Below are positions 6,021-42,584 of a stretch of DNA of 64,000 bases, piece after piece; the first letter of the stretch is position 1; every line of letters starts with the position of its first letter. The notes under the pieces were generated by a model that was not told where the DNA came from, ran no database searches, and saw only the letters and a list, made by a program, of their open reading frames with translations. The DNA is from Nitrososphaerales archaeon. GTDB lineage: Archaea > Thermoproteota > Nitrososphaeria > Nitrososphaerales > CADDZS01. The DNA is taken from the NCBI GenBank assembly GCA_030041295.1, contig JASHOD010000115.1, positions 1-64,000 on the forward strand, read 5' to 3'. A program made the translations under genes and the position numbers.

Positions 6021-7526
6021 TCAAGTACTCGTTGTAGTTTTATTCTTCTCCTTGACAGACACAAGCAATTCCGCGGCTTTTTCGTTTTCTACTGCCTGCT
6101 CGGGATTTTCTAGTGTTTCTGGAATAGCCTTTCTGGCTTCTTCCGCAATTTCATTGAGAGACTGGATGATGTTTTCGACTTCTTGTTGTTGTTCTGTTGC
6201 TGATGCTTCTTCTGGTTCTTCCACTTTTTCGTCCGTTTTTGGTACTTCGGCTAAAATGTCGCTTGCTTCTGGTATATTCTCAGTAGTAGTGGTACTAGCG
6301 AAAATTTCCTCGGCCTCTGGAATGGTAGTAATTTTCTTCTCAGCTTGCTTGTTTATCCTCCGACCACTCTTGATTAAGGAAAGCCTGGACGGGACGTCGC
6401 TGACTTGAGGAATCGTGGGGCGCTCCTCTAACTGTACTTTGTCTTGCAACTGCTCCGCAAAATGCATGGTAAGAATTCTGTTTGTACTATCGTAGCTCTG
6501 TCCTAAAAGCTCCATTCTGTTTCTACTTAGGCTGATTGCTTCCAAGAGTCCAGACGCGATGCCTTCAAGGAACTGGTTGCCATATGAAACATCGCGTTCG
6601 AATGTCGGAGGGTCTAGTACGGTCACGCTTCCCAACTTTCCTTTAATTTCTCCACGCAGTTCGAAAGTCCCCCAGCCTGAGGCTAGTAGGAAGCCTTGCA
6701 CGTTCTCGAGCAGTAGACTATTCCTTATCTTGGGAAGTTTCGGTAACATCCTAGATCCAATTCTGAACACCCGCGTGGAACAAACAGCACATGACCCTTG
6801 CACTGCGGGTTTGCCATTCTTCATAATCACCTGCATCGGATTACTTACTTCCCTCATGGCTCTGCATCTTACACAGAAAGCCTGAACTGTCGTATCTCCG
6901 ACTCCGCCATTTACTTCTTCTTCGATGCCATATCCATCGAGTGGAAGCAGGTCAATCGATTTAGATAACAAGCTCTTGAAATCCTCGATCGCCTCGAGTA
7001 TGTAGCTACGCCCCTCGTCGTAAAGCGCACTGGTCCCAAGAGTTCCCGCGTCTCTAGCTAGGCGGGAGCCTAACTTGATAAACGTGTTCGAGCGTAAAGC
7101 AAGCGCACGGTGCGAGTCGTAGAATACAAGCGGAAAGGATCTTCCGTACATCAATCCTCGCAATTCTTGATATTCTACCGCTGCCACAAATCCCAAATTT
7201 CTAACAAACTTCGAAAGTTCGGCTGGATTTGATCCGCACCTTGATAGGTCGCACTGCAGAGCTATTGTAAACTGCTGCTTTTTTTCGTTACTGACCCGAC
7301 TGTTGAAAGAAAGTATCTGAGCACCTTTTTCGATGAAGAGGCCTAGAATCTTGTTTTGAAAATCGCCAGTATCCTTGCCTTTCACTTTCCCCATAACGAG
7401 GAATTCGTAGCAGTTTTCACCTGCCGGTGCACTGAACCCAATGTTGTTAGAAAAGTACGGAGCAGTAAGCTGATTTTGTCTGTTCCTAAAATTAAAGAGC
7501 GCCACAGTTTTTCTCCAGCATTGCAA
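6021..7526 (-). CDS. V4R-like sensor-type protein with inserted DUF5679 zinc ribbon (paralogue A)
   Basis: This 501-residue protein is one of three paralogues in the window. Residues about 30-135 form an ACT-like regulatory module (CYEFLVMGKVKG, LFIEKGAQILSFNSR). Residues about 140-190 and 272-360 resemble the two halves of a V4R (4-vinyl-reductase) small-molecule-binding domain, with LYDEGRS and GFLLASGWGTFEL. Only this copy carries a zinc ribbon between the halves: Cys218, Cys221, Cys246 and Cys249 in a DUF5679-type sequence (FCVRCRA, KNGKPAVQGSCAVC). The last 130 residues are acidic and Thr/Glu-rich and likely disordered. No enzyme or DNA-binding domain is visible, so the function is unknown. 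Confidence 0.8.
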   Translation of the reverse strand: MQCWRKTVALFNFRNRQNQLTAPYFSNNIGFSAPAGENCYEFLVMGKVKGKDTGDFQNKILGLFIEKGAQILSFNSRVSNEKKQQFTIALQCDLSRCGSNPAELSKFVRNLGFVAAVEYQELRGLMYGRSFPLVFYDSHRALALRSNTFIKLGSRLARDAGTLGTSALYDEGRSYILEAIEDFKSLLSKSIDLLPLDGYGIEEEVNGGVGDTTVQAFCVRCRAMREVSNPMQVIMKNGKPAVQGSCAVCSTRVFRIGSRMLPKLPKIRNSLLLENVQGFLLASGWGTFELRGEIKGKLGSVTVLDPPTFERDVSYGNQFLEGIASGLLEAISLSRNRMELLGQSYDSTNRILTMHFAEQLQDKVQLEERPTIPQVSDVPSRLSLIKSGRRINKQAEKKITTIPEAEEIFASTTTTENIPEASDILAEVPKTDEKVEEPEEASATEQQQEVENIIQSLNEIAEEARKAIPETLENPEQAVENEKAAELLVSVKEKNKTTTST

Positions 7527-7830: not shown

Positions 7831-8278
7831 AATGGATCAAGCTCGCGAATTGCCAAAAATAAGAGACTTGTGAATTTGAAATACTATACCCGAAATTCCA
7901 ATTTTACCTTGATTCTTGACTTGAGCAGAAAAGAAATGACCTGCAGATCTCCCCAATCCTCTTTTTGTCCCACTTGTAACTCAAAAGCCAAAGTCCAAGA
8001 AGAATTATGGTTCCTCTCTTACCGCACCTTCCTAACAATGACTCTGGCTTCAAGCATGCATGCTCAAGGGGAGGGCGTGTTGATAACACAGATTCGTAAT
8101 GATATATCGACTCCCTATGGTAATTTTCGTAAAAGCATCATCATGGACTAGTATGAATAAACCAAAATTCCTTACCTTAGGGTTTCGACATCATATATCA
8201 TAACGAAATCCCCCTGAAGCAAATGGGGGATAAAGAAAAAAAATTACAAAGAAAAAGAAAAAGGAGAGAATTAGACAC

Positions 8279-8488
8279 ATGCGATTTCCACAGACGACAG
8301 CCCGAACGAAGACCCTTTCATCCAAGCAAGGACGAATGCAAATTTATTCTTGCGACTTTTGCGAGTTCGTTCATAGCAGCATCAGCATTGCCGATGACAA
8401 TGAGCGAGAAATGATTGAATTAATGGACGGGGCGTTTGAAGCAAAGTATCTGTTTCATATGAGGACCGTCCATGGCCTAGAGAAGTAA
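8279..8488 (+). CDS. Small C2H2-type zinc-finger protein (copy 1)
   Basis: The 69-residue product has Cys25 and Cys28 (YSCDFCEF) and His60 and His65 (YLFHMRTVH), a C-x2-C-x31-H-x4-H arrangement likely to bind one zinc. A second copy at 35340-35534 keeps exactly the same spacing and the flanking GRM-x-x-YSC and FEAKYL sequences. Both lie next to a V4R-like gene, here converging with paralogue B across 65 nt. Zinc fingers of this size often mediate nucleic-acid or protein contacts. The role is inferred from context only. Confidence 0.75.
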   Translation: MRFPQTTARTKTLSSKQGRMQIYSCDFCEFVHSSISIADDNEREMIELMDGAFEAKYLFHMRTVHGLEK

Positions 8489-8553: not shown

Positions 8554-10056
8554 TTATAGCCAGAAATTGTCTTCCAACTCGGAGCCCGACGAATCTTTGC
8601 CTATAATTTTCGTACTAGCTCCTTTTTCGTTTTTCTTAGCAGAAACTGCTCTGAACCCGTTCTTTCGTCCACGGCGATTAGGGGCCGTCTTTTGTGGAAC
8701 TTCTTGAGCTTCCTTTTGCTCGTCGTCCCCATACTTTGGCGCTTTATCTAAATTCTTTTTGACCTCTGGACTTGCGACAGGAATTATCTCCTTATCGTAG
8801 GTGACAGAATCATTCGCCTTGGGGATCTTTTCAATCGACTTGATCAGACGATCGACCTGCTCTTGAGCTTCAGCGGAGCCATTATTCTCTTCGATACCAA
8901 GTTCCGGAGATTCTGTTACGACATCATTCATAGATTCCTCGACTGGAGGTGGAAGCTGTTGGGATTGAATTTGTAACCTACTTCTCGTTTGCGAGACGAT
9001 TGGGATCTGGATGACCGGGCTGGCCAATTCCTTTTCGTTTATCGGCTCGGGTTTTGAAGGTTCAATTTCTGGTGTGCCTACTTCATTTCGTTGTTCTTCT
9101 TGGTCTTCTAACGCAACCTGATTAAGGTAGAATAGTGTAAGTGCCCTAGACTCGCTATCGTAAGACTCCTTCGTAATGCAAAGGTTGAGTTTCCGTGAGG
9201 CGCTGGGTAGCGATTCGATTATTCCTGCTATCATTCCCTGCAAGAAATAATTTTCAACAACAATTCCTCCGTCGGCATCTGTCGGAGGATCCCACAGCAT
9301 AACGCGGTAAGCGTCCGAGCCCTCCTTTTTCGAAAAAGACAATGTTCCCCATCCCGCCGCGCGCATAAAGGCTCTTGCATTTTGGAAAATGTAATCTTCT
9401 TCTTTCTCTACTTCTTCTCCACCTGCCGCCTCGTCTCTAGGAAGCTCCTTACCTTTCCCACTATCCCCGTCGCCGTTTCCAAGGAATTCTCTTATTGTGC
9501 TTACGATCTCGCTCCCCTCGCTACGCCCGTCTTCGTACAAGAGACTCTTTGCTCTCACATCCCCCAGCGCTTCAGAGATGTGGCTGAATAGCCTCGTGAA
9601 TCGATCCGAGTCGATAGCTAGTGCTCTAACCGTCCCAAAGAATGTAAGAGGAAATAGGAATTCCGTGAAAATTATACGGTTCGAGCCCTTGTATTCTCCC
9701 AGCTTTACAAATTTCTTGAGCTTGTTTAATCGCAAAGCCAAATCTGCGGGAGTGCGCTTTGCGTTCGAAAAGTCAGTGACCACATCCATGACAAATTGCG
9801 TTGGAGATTGATCATTGAAGAACGTTAGCGAGTTGATGCGGACCTTTTGCTCTTCGAAGATTTTCAAAACTGCTGTAAGGGCTTCCCGTTCCTTGTTTTG
9901 TAACCCCATGAGCACAAATTCATACTGATTTTTGGAGCATGGAATCGAATAGCCGATGTTATTTGGATAATACACTTTCTTCCTCTCAAGCGGAGAACGA
10001 TTTTCTTCGTCGTCATTGCTTTGTGAGCCCAGGTTTTCCTCGACCGTGATCGGCAT
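8554..10056 (-). CDS. V4R-like sensor-type protein (paralogue B)
   Basis: This protein of about 500 residues shares its whole plan with paralogues A and C. After a short leader, an ACT-like module (QYEFVLMGLQNKER, RINSLTFFND) is followed by a V4R-like domain (LLYEDGRSEG, then ARAFMRAAGWGTLSF and NYFLQGMIAGIIES) and a disordered tail of about 160 residues rich in Glu, Pro, Gln and Lys. It lacks the zinc ribbon of copy A; an acidic linker with GEEVEKEED takes that place. ATG 10056 is chosen. GTG at 10062 or 10068 is possible because an AGGAGGAG sequence lies just upstream. The ligand and partner are unknown. Confidence 0.8.
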   Translation of the reverse strand: MPITVEENLGSQSNDDEENRSPLERKKVYYPNNIGYSIPCSKNQYEFVLMGLQNKEREALTAVLKIFEEQKVRINSLTFFNDQSPTQFVMDVVTDFSNAKRTPADLALRLNKLKKFVKLGEYKGSNRIIFTEFLFPLTFFGTVRALAIDSDRFTRLFSHISEALGDVRAKSLLYEDGRSEGSEIVSTIREFLGNGDGDSGKGKELPRDEAAGGEEVEKEEDYIFQNARAFMRAAGWGTLSFSKKEGSDAYRVMLWDPPTDADGGIVVENYFLQGMIAGIIESLPSASRKLNLCITKESYDSESRALTLFYLNQVALEDQEEQRNEVGTPEIEPSKPEPINEKELASPVIQIPIVSQTRSRLQIQSQQLPPPVEESMNDVVTESPELGIEENNGSAEAQEQVDRLIKSIEKIPKANDSVTYDKEIIPVASPEVKKNLDKAPKYGDDEQKEAQEVPQKTAPNRRGRKNGFRAVSAKKNEKGASTKIIGKDSSGSELEDNFWL

Positions 10057-10304
10057 TTTCACTAACACTCTCCTCCTTGTTTACTCCTTTAGGAATATAT
10101 TGCGAACTCGAAATCCTGATTTTGAAGTAGTTAGTTGGATTAGTATTACAAATTCCGTACGAAATTCCAAAGGAAATGATCGTTCTCCGAAACTTTGAAC
10201 CATGACAACAGTGTCTTGTGACCCGAAACATCGATAGGCTTTGGTTTATTATGCCCTTATCAGATCTAACACAGATCAGAGTCGAAGAAGGGAATCTTTC
10301 TAGA

Positions 10305-29157: not shown

Positions 29158-30534
29158 CTAGGAACTTGCGCCCTGCGGATCAGTTGACTTTTTCTGTCTG
29201 TGTCGTTGTACTGATTTCAACACCTCCGAAGAAGCAAGTGCGTCCCGATCGAAATACTCCGCGACCTCGTAATTTGTTTCTAGGCGTAGTGCCCATTTTG
29301 TTTTGAACGTAATATCGGTATCGTAATTTCCGCTTTCCCTCACAATCAAGTGAGTCAGAGGAACTTCCAAATTCGCAAGCCTGGCTTTCGTAGCTTCTAT
29401 CATGCTGTCGTGTCTCGACGAGGAGATACCAATTATCGCCCGGCCGGATTCCACTTGCTTGTAAGCGTCGTTCTTTCCCTGCTCAATCAGGAGATCAAGC
29501 TCGGCGTACTTTGGACTGTTGTAAAGGTCCCAGAATTTATCTCGCAATTCTTTATCATGAATATCAGAAGCCCTCATCGATGGAGACAGGCCGAGTTCCT
29601 GCATAGCCGCGCGTCTTCTCGGCAGCGGATCTAGCATCGTGCTATCGACGTCAAAAACTGCAATTTTCGACCCTTTTGGGAGGGAATCGATCAAAAACGG
29701 ATTGCAACGTTCAGAGTAAGCACAGCGCTCGCATTGGACAAAATCTCTGTTAAATGAAGCCTCCTTTTGAGGCAGGAGATTTTGTTTGAGAGCTTCGTGC
29801 AATTCGAAGACTCGCTCGCGCAATACAATTTGCATCACGTCATCTTTGGGGATTGAGAAGGCCTTGACTCCCCCGCCTCTCTTCGCCCAGTACAGTAAAA
29901 CACCAATTGGAAAATTCTTGGCAAGAAGATATGTCGAGAGCTGGTAATAATGAGCCTGTTTTGGTTCCTCGGGAAGCGTTCCGATACTCTTGATTTCAAG
30001 CGGGATGAATAGTTTGAAATCCTGCGAATCCTCATCTGTAATTCTGATCAGCAGCAGGTCGTCGATTCTGCCATGCAACTTTGCTTCGCCGTCCGCGAAC
30101 TCCAAATCAACGACAACTTCTCTACCCTCGACTGAAATCAGCCCCGATCTTCGTAGAGCGATTGCAATTAGTTCGTGGATCGCCCTACCCTCGCCGAATA
30201 TTGCCAAGTCTTCCTTGCTAGGGGGAATTGGCGCAGTGTATGAGTAAGCCTGCTGACGAAGACAGCGTTCTATCATACTGGGGTAGTAGGAACCTAGCCT
30301 GAACTTGTGATTCGCAGATTCTGCTTCCCATTCTGAATGCATACCCTCGTGAAGAGCATCCTCAATCATCGAGGAAATTTTCGCTGGCTTGTCTAGAATC
30401 TTTGCGACCCATTTCTCGAACTTCATCCTTTCTTCCACAGAGAGAGCATTAGGATCTGTAGGGTCGTGAAGGAAAGAGTCTAGTGAAGATGCCAAATAGA
30501 AAGGACTGCCTAACGCAATCAGAATTACCTTCAC
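29158..30534 (-). CDS. Cas4-like PD-(D/E)XK nuclease fused to a HAD-superfamily phosphatase
   Basis: The 458-residue protein has two domains. Residues about 80-280 resemble Cas4/RecB-type exonucleases: Cys91, His120, Asp158 in GRIDD, Glu180-x-Lys182 in PLEIKS, Gln198 in YYQLSTY, and Cys268, Cys271 and Cys277, which with Cys91 would hold a 4Fe-4S cluster. Residues about 289-440 are a HAD domain with DVDST (Asp295, Asp297), motif II GISSSR, Lys411 or Lys413 and an acidic EYFDRD (Asp429, Asp431). The SSR...LIVRES...D...FKTK...DRD order resembles polynucleotide 3'-phosphatases. It would trim DNA and clean its ends, by inference. No cas genes or CRISPR array are nearby. Confidence 0.78.
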   Translation of the reverse strand: MKVILIALGSPFYLASSLDSFLHDPTDPNALSVEERMKFEKWVAKILDKPAKISSMIEDALHEGMHSEWEAESANHKFRLGSYYPSMIERCLRQQAYSYTAPIPPSKEDLAIFGEGRAIHELIAIALRRSGLISVEGREVVVDLEFADGEAKLHGRIDDLLLIRITDEDSQDFKLFIPLEIKSIGTLPEEPKQAHYYQLSTYLLAKNFPIGVLLYWAKRGGGVKAFSIPKDDVMQIVLRERVFELHEALKQNLLPQKEASFNRDFVQCERCAYSERCNPFLIDSLPKGSKIAVFDVDSTMLDPLPRRRAAMQELGLSPSMRASDIHDKELRDKFWDLYNSPKYAELDLLIEQGKNDAYKQVESGRAIIGISSSRHDSMIEATKARLANLEVPLTHLIVRESGNYDTDITFKTKWALRLETNYEVAEYFDRDALASSEVLKSVQRHRQKKSTDPQGASS

Positions 30535-33597: not shown

Positions 33598-35145
33598 TCA
33601 GAACTTTACAGCGTCGACTGAAGAATATTCTTCGTCGTTGTTCTCGCTTACTTCAACGACTTGCTGCTGCTGAACTTGCTGTTGCTGTTGCGCTTGCGCT
33701 TGCGCTTTTGGGGTTCGCTTCCTCGCCGGTGATTTTCTTACAGGTGTCGGCGGCTGCTCCAGCGGAGGCTGAACAATTTGAACGCCATATCCTATCATTT
33801 CTCCTTGTTTGACAACTTTGATAGACGTTGGTTGATCGGCTAAAGGAGCAGCGCTAGTAGTAGCAACAGGAGCAATTTGTGTCTTTCTAGGTCGGGGAGT
33901 TGGCGGAATTATTTGTTGCGGAGCTACGGTCTTTTCATCTTCTAGTTGTTCTTCTTGTTGAGGTAACTGTTGAGGAGTTACGTCAGGATTCATAACTACT
34001 GAGGCATTTCCGATTGGAGCGGCAGAAGTAGCAACTACAACTACTGGATTGCTAGGAGCCGCTGGTTGTTGCTGTGGCCCAGTTTCTCCACCACCTTCTT
34101 CAATTTGTTTGATTGATTTTATTACTTGAGCTACTTGGACAGCCGCATCTCCGGAGTTTCGTGCTCGTTGCGTGAGTTGCGGCATAGGCGCAACAAGTTT
34201 CTTCGCCCTAATTGGTTGTTCATCAAAATCTTCATCCTCATCCTCTTCGGCTTGGATGCTGTCTTCATCCTCATGCGAAAGTTCCTTAATCGCTGCCTTG
34301 TCCATGTAATACAGCACAAGGTTCTGTCTCTGCTCTTCGTACCCCTCTCTTAACATTGTGAGTTTAACTTCAGGTCTTAGGAAAGACTCTATGATACCTG
34401 CGACTACACCTTGTAGAAAGTAGTTTCCTAAAACTGCGTCACCTTCAGCATCGGCTGGAGGTTCTGTGATTGTCGCCTTGTAAATTTCAGCACCTTCGTT
34501 GTGGAAGAGTAATTTGCCCCATCCGGCTGCTTGGAATAGAGCCTTCGCATTGTCAAGGAGCAATGATTTGTCCTTCGACAACTTTTCTCCTAGTTTCTCT
34601 TTGAGAGCTGCCATTATTTCTCTTCCTTCCGTTCGTCCGTTATCATACAAAGATTCCTTTGCTTTATTGCCAAAGGATTTTGTGATATTTTCGAATAAAT
34701 GTACGAACCTATCTGAATCTAGGGCGACAGCCCTAATTTCTCCTCCAAAGAATGTAAGAGGAAACATGAAATTGCTAAACATCCTTCCTTCGAGCGGATT
34801 CATCTCAGCTAACTTCACGAACTTTGACTTGTTCAATTTGATAAGGAGTTGATCCTCCCGGGTCTTTGCGAAAGTGAAGTCGCACACAACATCCATCGCA
34901 AATTTATCCATCGATTGGTCGTTGAAGAAAGCAAGAGAGACTATCCTAACTCCGCCAGAGTCTAGGATTTTCATAATCTGGGGGATGGCTTCTCGTTTCT
35001 CGTTTTGCTGACCCGATATTGCAAATTCAAAATGCTGACTAGGAACCGGAGTAGGCATGCCCAACGTTATGGGATAGCTGACCTTCTGGTCTGGTTCGTA
35101 ATTCAGCGCTTTTTCCGTACTTTCTAAGACTCTTTCTAGTCCCAT
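33598..35145 (-). CDS. V4R-like sensor-type protein with Gln-rich tail (paralogue C)
   Basis: The 515-residue protein aligns with paralogues A and B throughout: ACT-like module (HFEFAISGQQNEKREAIPQI, VRIVSLAFFNDQS), V4R-like domain (SLYDNGRTEG, AKALFQAAGWGKLLF, NYFLQGVVAGIIESF) and a long disordered tail (about residues 300-515). The tail has acidic blocks and runs of Gln, including one of QQQQQ type. It is closest to paralogue B. A C2H2 zinc-finger gene of the same kind as at 8.3 kb lies 194 nt upstream on the same strand. Function is unknown. Confidence 0.8.
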   Translation of the reverse strand: MGLERVLESTEKALNYEPDQKVSYPITLGMPTPVPSQHFEFAISGQQNEKREAIPQIMKILDSGGVRIVSLAFFNDQSMDKFAMDVVCDFTFAKTREDQLLIKLNKSKFVKLAEMNPLEGRMFSNFMFPLTFFGGEIRAVALDSDRFVHLFENITKSFGNKAKESLYDNGRTEGREIMAALKEKLGEKLSKDKSLLLDNAKALFQAAGWGKLLFHNEGAEIYKATITEPPADAEGDAVLGNYFLQGVVAGIIESFLRPEVKLTMLREGYEEQRQNLVLYYMDKAAIKELSHEDEDSIQAEEDEDEDFDEQPIRAKKLVAPMPQLTQRARNSGDAAVQVAQVIKSIKQIEEGGGETGPQQQPAAPSNPVVVVATSAAPIGNASVVMNPDVTPQQLPQQEEQLEDEKTVAPQQIIPPTPRPRKTQIAPVATTSAAPLADQPTSIKVVKQGEMIGYGVQIVQPPLEQPPTPVRKSPARKRTPKAQAQAQQQQQVQQQQVVEVSENNDEEYSSVDAVKF

Positions 35146-35339: not shown

Positions 35340-35534
35340 CTAGCGGTCGAGCGAGTGGACTGATCTCAGATGGTAGAGGTATTTGGCTTCAAAAGCAGAA
35401 TCGGCGAGCTTTCCATCGTCAGAATCAACTTCTCCTGCGTCTGGTAGGTTATTTTGGACGAACTCGCAAAAGACACAGGAGTAAACCTTCATGCGTCCTT
35501 CTTTCGTTGATAAGGCGCTTTTTTCTTGGCTCAT
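35340..35534 (-). CDS. Small C2H2-type zinc-finger protein (copy 2)
   Basis: The 64-residue product (ATG 35534) has Cys20 and Cys23 (YSCVFCEF) and His55 and His60 (YLYHLRSVH). The C-x2-C-x31-H-x4-H spacing and the surrounding GRM-K-V-YSC, FEAKYL and VHSLDR/VHGLEK segments match copy 1 at 8279-8488. It precedes paralogue C on the same strand. An upstream in-frame extension to 35615 is possible but not conserved in copy 1. Confidence 0.72.
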   Translation of the reverse strand: MSQEKSALSTKEGRMKVYSCVFCEFVQNNLPDAGEVDSDDGKLADSAFEAKYLYHLRSVHSLDR

Positions 35535-35840
35535 GATGGAGCTTTGCTCTTCTGTCCTGTCTTGTTTTTCTGCTCCGTTCATCGCTTTCTGTTGGATGCT
35601 TTTTCTGGTGCGCAATTTTCGGACGCTCTATAGGTAGCTTGAACCCTAAAGTAAAGAATTTGAGCGAATTGCAGATCTGATGCTTTAGTGAATTTGTGAA
35701 AAGTGCACAAAGGGATTCGATATGAAGTCTGAAATTCATATTATCGAATCAATTCGTGCTTAGATTTTCCCTCTTTTCATCTCATTCTCCCTTAAAAGCT
35801 CGTTAACAACGCCGTAATCTGTTCGACCACTAGCATATCG

Positions 35841-41986: not shown

Positions 41987-42211
41987 ATGGAAAAAGAAGA
42001 AGTGCTGGTTACTCGACGTGGACAGACAACAATACCAAATAAGATTCGAAAGAAGCTAAATATCCGAGAAGGTACACGATTGAGAGTCGAAACTAAAGAC
42101 GATAAGGTCATTTTTAGTAAAATACCCTCGATCTTCGACTTGGCGGGTACGGGCAGATTAACTAGACAACAAGCAATCAAACGTCTCGATCAGATGCGAG
42201 AAGAAGATTGA
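41987..42211 (+). CDS. AbrB/MazE-type antitoxin (VapB-like)
   Basis: The 74-residue product has the swapped-hairpin AbrB fold: VLVTRRGQTTIPNKIRKKLNIREGTRLRVE, then DDKVIFSKIP. A C-terminal helical tail (RLTRQQAIKRLDQMREED) would wrap and block the toxin. It sits 4 nt before the PIN-domain gene, the standard antitoxin-first order. It likely binds the operon promoter as a dimer. Confidence 0.88.
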   Translation: MEKEEVLVTRRGQTTIPNKIRKKLNIREGTRLRVETKDDKVIFSKIPSIFDLAGTGRLTRQQAIKRLDQMREED

Positions 42212-42215
42212 CAAA

Positions 42216-42584
42216 ATGCTTTTCGAAACTCGCTATTTTTGGACAATATTTAATGAGAAAGATTCTGAGTACGTAAACAGGCTTCGCCAGATCTTCGAAA
42301 GATCAAAGAGGAGGCTGGTGAGTTCGATTACTATCTATGAGATTTACAAACTCAGCTTGGAGAGCGAAGGAGAAATTGTTGCAGAACTGCGTGTCAACAC
42401 GATCAGGAGCGATTTCGATGTAATAGACGTTAATTTCCAGATTGCGCAAGAAGGAGCAAGAATTGCGCATGTTCAGAGAACACCAATGGCTGATTCCTTG
42501 ATTATTGCAACAGCAAAGCAACTGAAGGTACCTTGTGTCACTGATGATCCACATTTTGAGGCCATTAAGACTGTTTGGCTCTAA
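42216..42584 (+). CDS. PIN-domain ribonuclease toxin (VapC-like)
   Basis: The 122-residue protein is a PIN nuclease: Glu42 (ITIYEIYKL), Asp93 (PMADSLIIATA) and Asp110/Asp111 (CVTDDPHF). The first acidic residue, usually Asp after the first strand, is replaced by Glu4 in MLFETRYFW, which may weaken metal binding. VapC toxins cleave tRNA or rRNA. It is co-transcribed with the upstream AbrB-type antitoxin. Confidence 0.87.
   Translation: MLFETRYFWTIFNEKDSEYVNRLRQIFERSKRRLVSSITIYEIYKLSLESEGEIVAELRVNTIRSDFDVIDVNFQIAQEGARIAHVQRTPMADSLIIATAKQLKVPCVTDDPHFEAIKTVWL

Follow-up and report, generated by a model that had tools for sequence, protein, structure and literature searches.

A family of small putative zinc-finger genes with a private upstream element, some of them beside ACT-V4R genes, in a lineage of Nitrososphaerales

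Why should two small zinc-finger genes of one archaeon each lie beside a gene for a V4R-like protein? Both pairs occur in the stretch of DNA analysed here, 64,000 nucleotides of a Nitrososphaerales contig (hereafter the window), and a first-pass annotation proposed that they represent a two-component partnership, perhaps a ligand-sensing protein with a nucleic-acid-binding finger. V4R domains have been proposed as sensors of hydrophobic ligands that signal in cis or in trans (PMC2253512). The genes concerned, including a third V4R-like gene about 750 bp from the first finger, are the following:

8279..8488, plus strand: ZF1, finger protein of 69 aa, C-x2-C-x31-H-x4-H
35340..35534, minus strand: ZF2, finger protein, ATG at 35534, frame open to an upstream TTG at 35615
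8554..10068, minus strand: ACT + V4R-fold protein 1, 504 aa, long low-complexity C-terminal tail with QVDRLIKSIEKI
33598..35145, minus strand: ACT + V4R-fold protein 2, 515 aa, long tail with VAQVIKSIKQI
6021..7526, minus strand: third ACT + V4R-like protein, 501 aa, DUF5679 zinc-ribbon-like insert between both domains

Both finger reading frames are real genes, because pN/pS ratios of 0.05-0.35 between relatives indicate purifying selection, most pairs being close to saturation at synonymous sites. ZF1 and ZF2 are paralogues with 47% identity and have in common the pattern GRM..YSC.FCEFV...FEAKYL.H.R.VH.L. A permissive threshold yields four members of the finger family in the source genome, among which the two window copies score far above the rest. 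Their identical cysteine-histidine spacing, remarked on in the first-pass annotation, is a genuine property of the window pair: across all six frames of the window, C-x2-C-x31-H-x4-H has exactly two matches, at 8351 (+) and 35477 (-). It does not extend to the family, in which the loop varies from about x22 to x31. The two cysteines and two histidines, invariant in 15 aligned relatives, would be predicted to bind zinc, and the proteins may bind DNA.

Classical C2H2 zinc fingers have the spacing C-x2-4-C-x12-H-x3-5-H. We rejected assignment to this class (zf-C2H2) on account of the long loop and the lack of any Pfam match above the cut-off. The AlphaFold model of the finger, of low confidence (pLDDT 66), is helical and unlike a classical finger, and comparison of the finger profile with solved structures gave chance-like matches alone, in repeat proteins that contain a short HGL peptide. 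AFV1p06, a DNA-binding protein of an archaeal virus, is likewise very small, with a single finger, a disordered N-terminus and an archaeal setting, but its motif has the classical short loop (PMC3541406), whereas here the loop spans 22-31 residues. A viral origin was also considered for the family and discarded, as viral contigs held no relative. The zinc-finger mu-proteins of Haloferax are similarly tiny, one-domain archaeal proteins; however, they carry C(P)XCG pairs (PMC11241148, PMC6562870), in contrast to the CC/HH arrangement of the window fingers.

The neighbours are V4R-like, as claimed, and combine two predicted folds. An AlphaFold model of protein 2, built with 11 rows, places an ACT domain at about residues 36-118 and a V4R/TRAPP-type fold at about 130-290. 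The N-terminal part has the beta-alpha-beta-beta-alpha-beta order and the structure matches of an ACT domain, and Pfam ACT gives weak matches in two relatives. On the alpha/beta V4R fold of the model, with structure matches to MopR (Z 12.3), Bet3-TPC6B (Z 10.8) and MJ1460 (Z 10.7), the second part is predicted to belong to the V4R/TRAPP fold superfamily. Pfam V4R (PF02830) matches none of the window proteins; their relatives are too divergent for that model, and the fold agrees. The GxxxG of helix 5 is kept in 26 of the 27 ACT-V4R rows; in the glycine pair of helix 2, the first position is invariant and the second varies among G, A, S, V and I. All three window ACT-V4R proteins are paralogues, and a motif of about EVxxIIxSLExI recurs in the tails of many long-tailed members. 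A further motif, CTTCGCAATGTTATAAGC at 35247-35230 (-), precedes V4R gene 2 by about 85 nt and is kept in the two orthologous loci; it is possibly the gene's own promoter.

Compared with known V4R proteins (MJ1460 and the sensor domains of MopR, PoxR and DmpR), these proteins have the same predicted fold and the same helix-5 GxxxG pair, but carry an ACT domain in front, a long tail in one subgroup and a V4R part without conserved cysteines. Aromatic sensors of the MopR/XylR type have a zinc site with cysteines in the sensor domain. Such a site is not found here: most rows have zero or one cysteine in the V4R region, and the four or five of a single group fit its DUF5679 insert. That insert is confined to one clade, made up of the third window gene and four relatives (L074, L075, L077 and L081), and none of the five has an adjacent finger of its own. 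The TRAPP subunits Bet3 and TPC6 share the fold class (Z about 10), the ACT fusion being a difference. Ligand sensing by the ACT-V4R proteins is a plausible function.

The two window pairs do differ in orientation, pair 1 (ZF1 and protein 1) being convergent across a 65-bp gap and pair 2 (ZF2 and protein 2) tandem, with the finger upstream and a gap of 194 bp. We surveyed nine draft genomes of the window's family with a 15-row finger profile, leaving out one partial match, and recovered 31 finger copies in eight of the nine genomes; a V4R profile found 27 nearly full-length ACT-V4R genes in the same set. For nine of the 31 fingers, an ACT-V4R gene is located at a distance of 65-523 bp, against about 0.1 expected from gene density (P about 4e-7 with orthologous loci counted once). 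Six of these loci are convergent and three are tandem with the finger upstream, and the linked V4R genes are spread over four or more separate branches of the V4R tree. Of the 15 profile rows, two had been found through adjacency to V4R genes. Yet the first profile, seeded from the window fingers alone, already had five of its 12 matches outside the window linked to V4R, and the enrichment is therefore independent of those rows. One genome of the same genus (G042, 82% complete) is the only family member in which no finger, ACT-V4R gene or upstream element of the kind described below was found.

The association is thus real and statistically strong, but optional. The first-pass annotation had named as evidence against a partnership that finger homologues elsewhere should usually lack a V4R neighbour, and 22 of the 31 family fingers do, which weakens the strict partnership and leaves the linkage standing. 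Some of these unlinked copies may be artefacts, since the draft assemblies are split into many short contigs. Most V4R genes, in turn, have no adjacent finger. The finger is almost absent outside the window's family. By contrast, of 201 genomes surveyed in the order, 59 (family members among them) encode ACT-V4R proteins, and the examined V4R genes of other families had no finger within 1.5 kb. These data do not support a dedicated, obligate two-component pair, and a physical interaction between finger and V4R protein may be envisaged where the two are linked.

The stronger signal lies upstream of the fingers. When the upstream regions of finger genes were compared, a bipartite element emerged, represented in the window by:

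8104..8185, plus strand: ZF1 upstream element, box A ATATCGA at 8104-8110
8162-8175, plus strand: box D of the ZF1 element, CCAAAATTCCTTAC, then GGG; middle T-rich/AA
35651..35723, minus strand: ZF2 upstream element, box A ATATCGA at 35723-35717, box D CTCAAATTCTTTAC at 35664-35651

The consensus is ATATCGR followed by a CCAAAATTGCTTAC-like box D, which resembles a BRE/TATA-like core, at 57-60 nt from start to start, and the distance from the element to the start codon ranges from some tens of nucleotides to about 120 nt. Information peaks at both boxes, at a TA and a TTTTC..AA stretch that follow box A, and at a GG that follows box D; elsewhere the spacer stays close to background. With a two-box matrix, all 12 copies score 26-39 bits, and nothing else in the fetched loci exceeds 20. 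We wrote an exact pattern from these 12 copies and searched 400 genomes of the order. In the nine family genomes it occurs at 12 sites, every one of them upstream of a type-I finger gene, the window pair included. These fingers comprise both V4R-linked and unlinked copies, and most of the finger copies closest to the window pair bear the element. The other 391 genomes gave three matches, compared with five for a reversed control pattern in the whole search. The idea that the element marks a wider regulon was rejected on these outside matches and on the lack of any further site in the family genomes. The 300 nt upstream of the V4R genes contain no box D, and the best scores there fall below the 99th percentile of random stretches. 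The element goes with the finger and not with V4R, and that the only element common to the finger genes is missing from the V4R genes counts further against a strict partnership.

V4R genes are not the only neighbours that recur. Three deeply paralogous loci (G070:C178, G023:C149 and G057:C131) have a small winged-helix gene interposed between the V4R gene and the convergent finger, passing the HTH_45 cut-off at G070 and matching below it at the other two. In genome G050, a coiled-coil-like ORF (EDERVYSEF..LTELIQEFGILK) or its remnant comes immediately after each of three fingers. The finger is therefore not tied to V4R alone. These neighbours are:

L036:10589-10867: winged-helix gene, the only one with HTH_45 above the Pfam cut-off
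L069:7456-7833: winged-helix gene
L078:7998-8414: winged-helix gene
L031:5819-6157: coiled-coil-like ORF or remnant directly after a finger, G050
L032:729-1040: coiled-coil-like ORF or remnant directly after a finger, G050
L032:4711-4848: coiled-coil-like ORF or remnant directly after a finger, G050

A weaker relative of the coiled-coil ORF occurs at L070:10218-10559. In both genera, a gene with a weak, below-cut-off PD-(D/E)XK nuclease match (window 29158-30534, L069:9705-11015 and L078:10274-11152) occurs within a few kb of a finger-V4R locus. The window also holds, at 41987-42584, what looks from its sequence like a toxin-antitoxin pair of AbrB and PIN type.

What, then, is the element, and what does the proximity mean? 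Its position before the start codon could make the element part of a leader, as it would be if it were a structured RNA, a small RNA or a coding exon and not promoter or operator DNA. We consider this very unlikely. RNAalifold yields no consensus structure for the element (0 kcal/mol), and Rfam gives nothing above chance level at the ZF1 site. A conserved reading frame is excluded by the box spacing of 57, 58, 59 or 60 nt, which is not a multiple of three, and by the unconserved middle. With neither a consensus RNA structure nor triplet spacing, a shared promoter with upstream operator sites is the most likely interpretation of the sequence.

The proximity itself might be a relic, with one ancestral finger-V4R pair having been duplicated and partly scattered without any functional link. 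Some linked loci are indeed orthologous, pair 2 sharing flanking genes with G050:C138 and G033:C81, and many finger and V4R copies have become dissociated. Co-duplication also predicts that finger and V4R distances should correlate, and they do (r 0.79 over nine pairs). When the loci are collapsed into five groups, co-divergence of finger and V4R is not significant (P about 0.1), which weighs against the reading that we prefer below. Nevertheless, proximity has been kept across deep V4R paralogues (identity about 20%) despite near-saturation at synonymous sites. Moreover, the finger lies 5′ of the V4R gene in pair 2 and 3′ of it in pair 1, though both V4R proteins are close relatives, and simple inheritance would predict a constant arrangement. 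We regard inherited proximity alone as somewhat unlikely. That the finger works as a regulator in its own right, with V4R, winged helix or coiled coil as exchangeable partners, is suggested by an element tied to the finger and not to its neighbour, and by the coiled-coil and HTH_45-like genes just described. V4R is nonetheless the commonest shared neighbour seen (nine loci, eight finger-bearing genomes), and we judge full autonomy unlikely, a little more so than inherited proximity.

The account that we tentatively prefer, while giving it somewhat less than an even chance, is one of lineage-specific finger regulators under their own promoter/operator, some of which serve adjoining ACT-V4R sensors. 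The fingers would form a lineage-specific, multi-copy family of small zinc-finger proteins, probably regulators, and most type-I copies appear to have in common a dedicated promoter/operator that occurs at no other site in the nine family genomes. Such an exclusive common element would most simply mean that one regulator controls the finger genes as a set, and this regulator is quite possibly the finger proteins themselves, acting by autoregulation. The ACT-V4R proteins, which carry no recognisable DNA-binding domain, would be cytoplasmic sensors of small molecules that signal in trans, with amino-acid-like ligands suggested by the ACT domain and hydrophobic ones by the V4R fold. At a subset of loci, the finger may act for the sensor as a small effector or adaptor that stays nearby but has its own transcript. 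The winged-helix gene that separates V4R from finger at three loci fits a regulatory role. We speculate further, on what we consider a doubtful and distinctly less probable extension, that the system is a self-contained network, in which the several finger paralogues of each genome bind a private bipartite operator controlling only finger genes, while ACT-V4R sensors tune particular fingers by ligand. Metabolite signals would then pass through a mutually cross-regulating set of fingers.

The lineage in which this system would operate can probably be named through one of its members. A contig of SubAcS9-71 (JAPCJU010000172) matches G023:C82 in its encoded finger. SubAcS9-71 is listed under Heterotrophic Terrestrial Thaumarchaeota, and two genomes of that study outside Group I.1c fall in GTDB family UBA141 (PMC10640624). 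From this one member, we infer the window's family to be UBA141, heterotrophic terrestrial Thaumarchaeota and little-known soil archaea.

Archaeal V4R proteins are relatives of eukaryotic TRAPP subunits and are thought to signal in cis or trans; to our knowledge, few of their effectors have been described. A small finger beside ACT-V4R sensors at several loci is a concrete candidate for such an effector. The bipartite element private to type-I finger genes is new here, and its exclusiveness provides a short DNA target for direct tests of binding and autoregulation. Together, the finger family and its private element point to a putative lineage-specific regulatory system.
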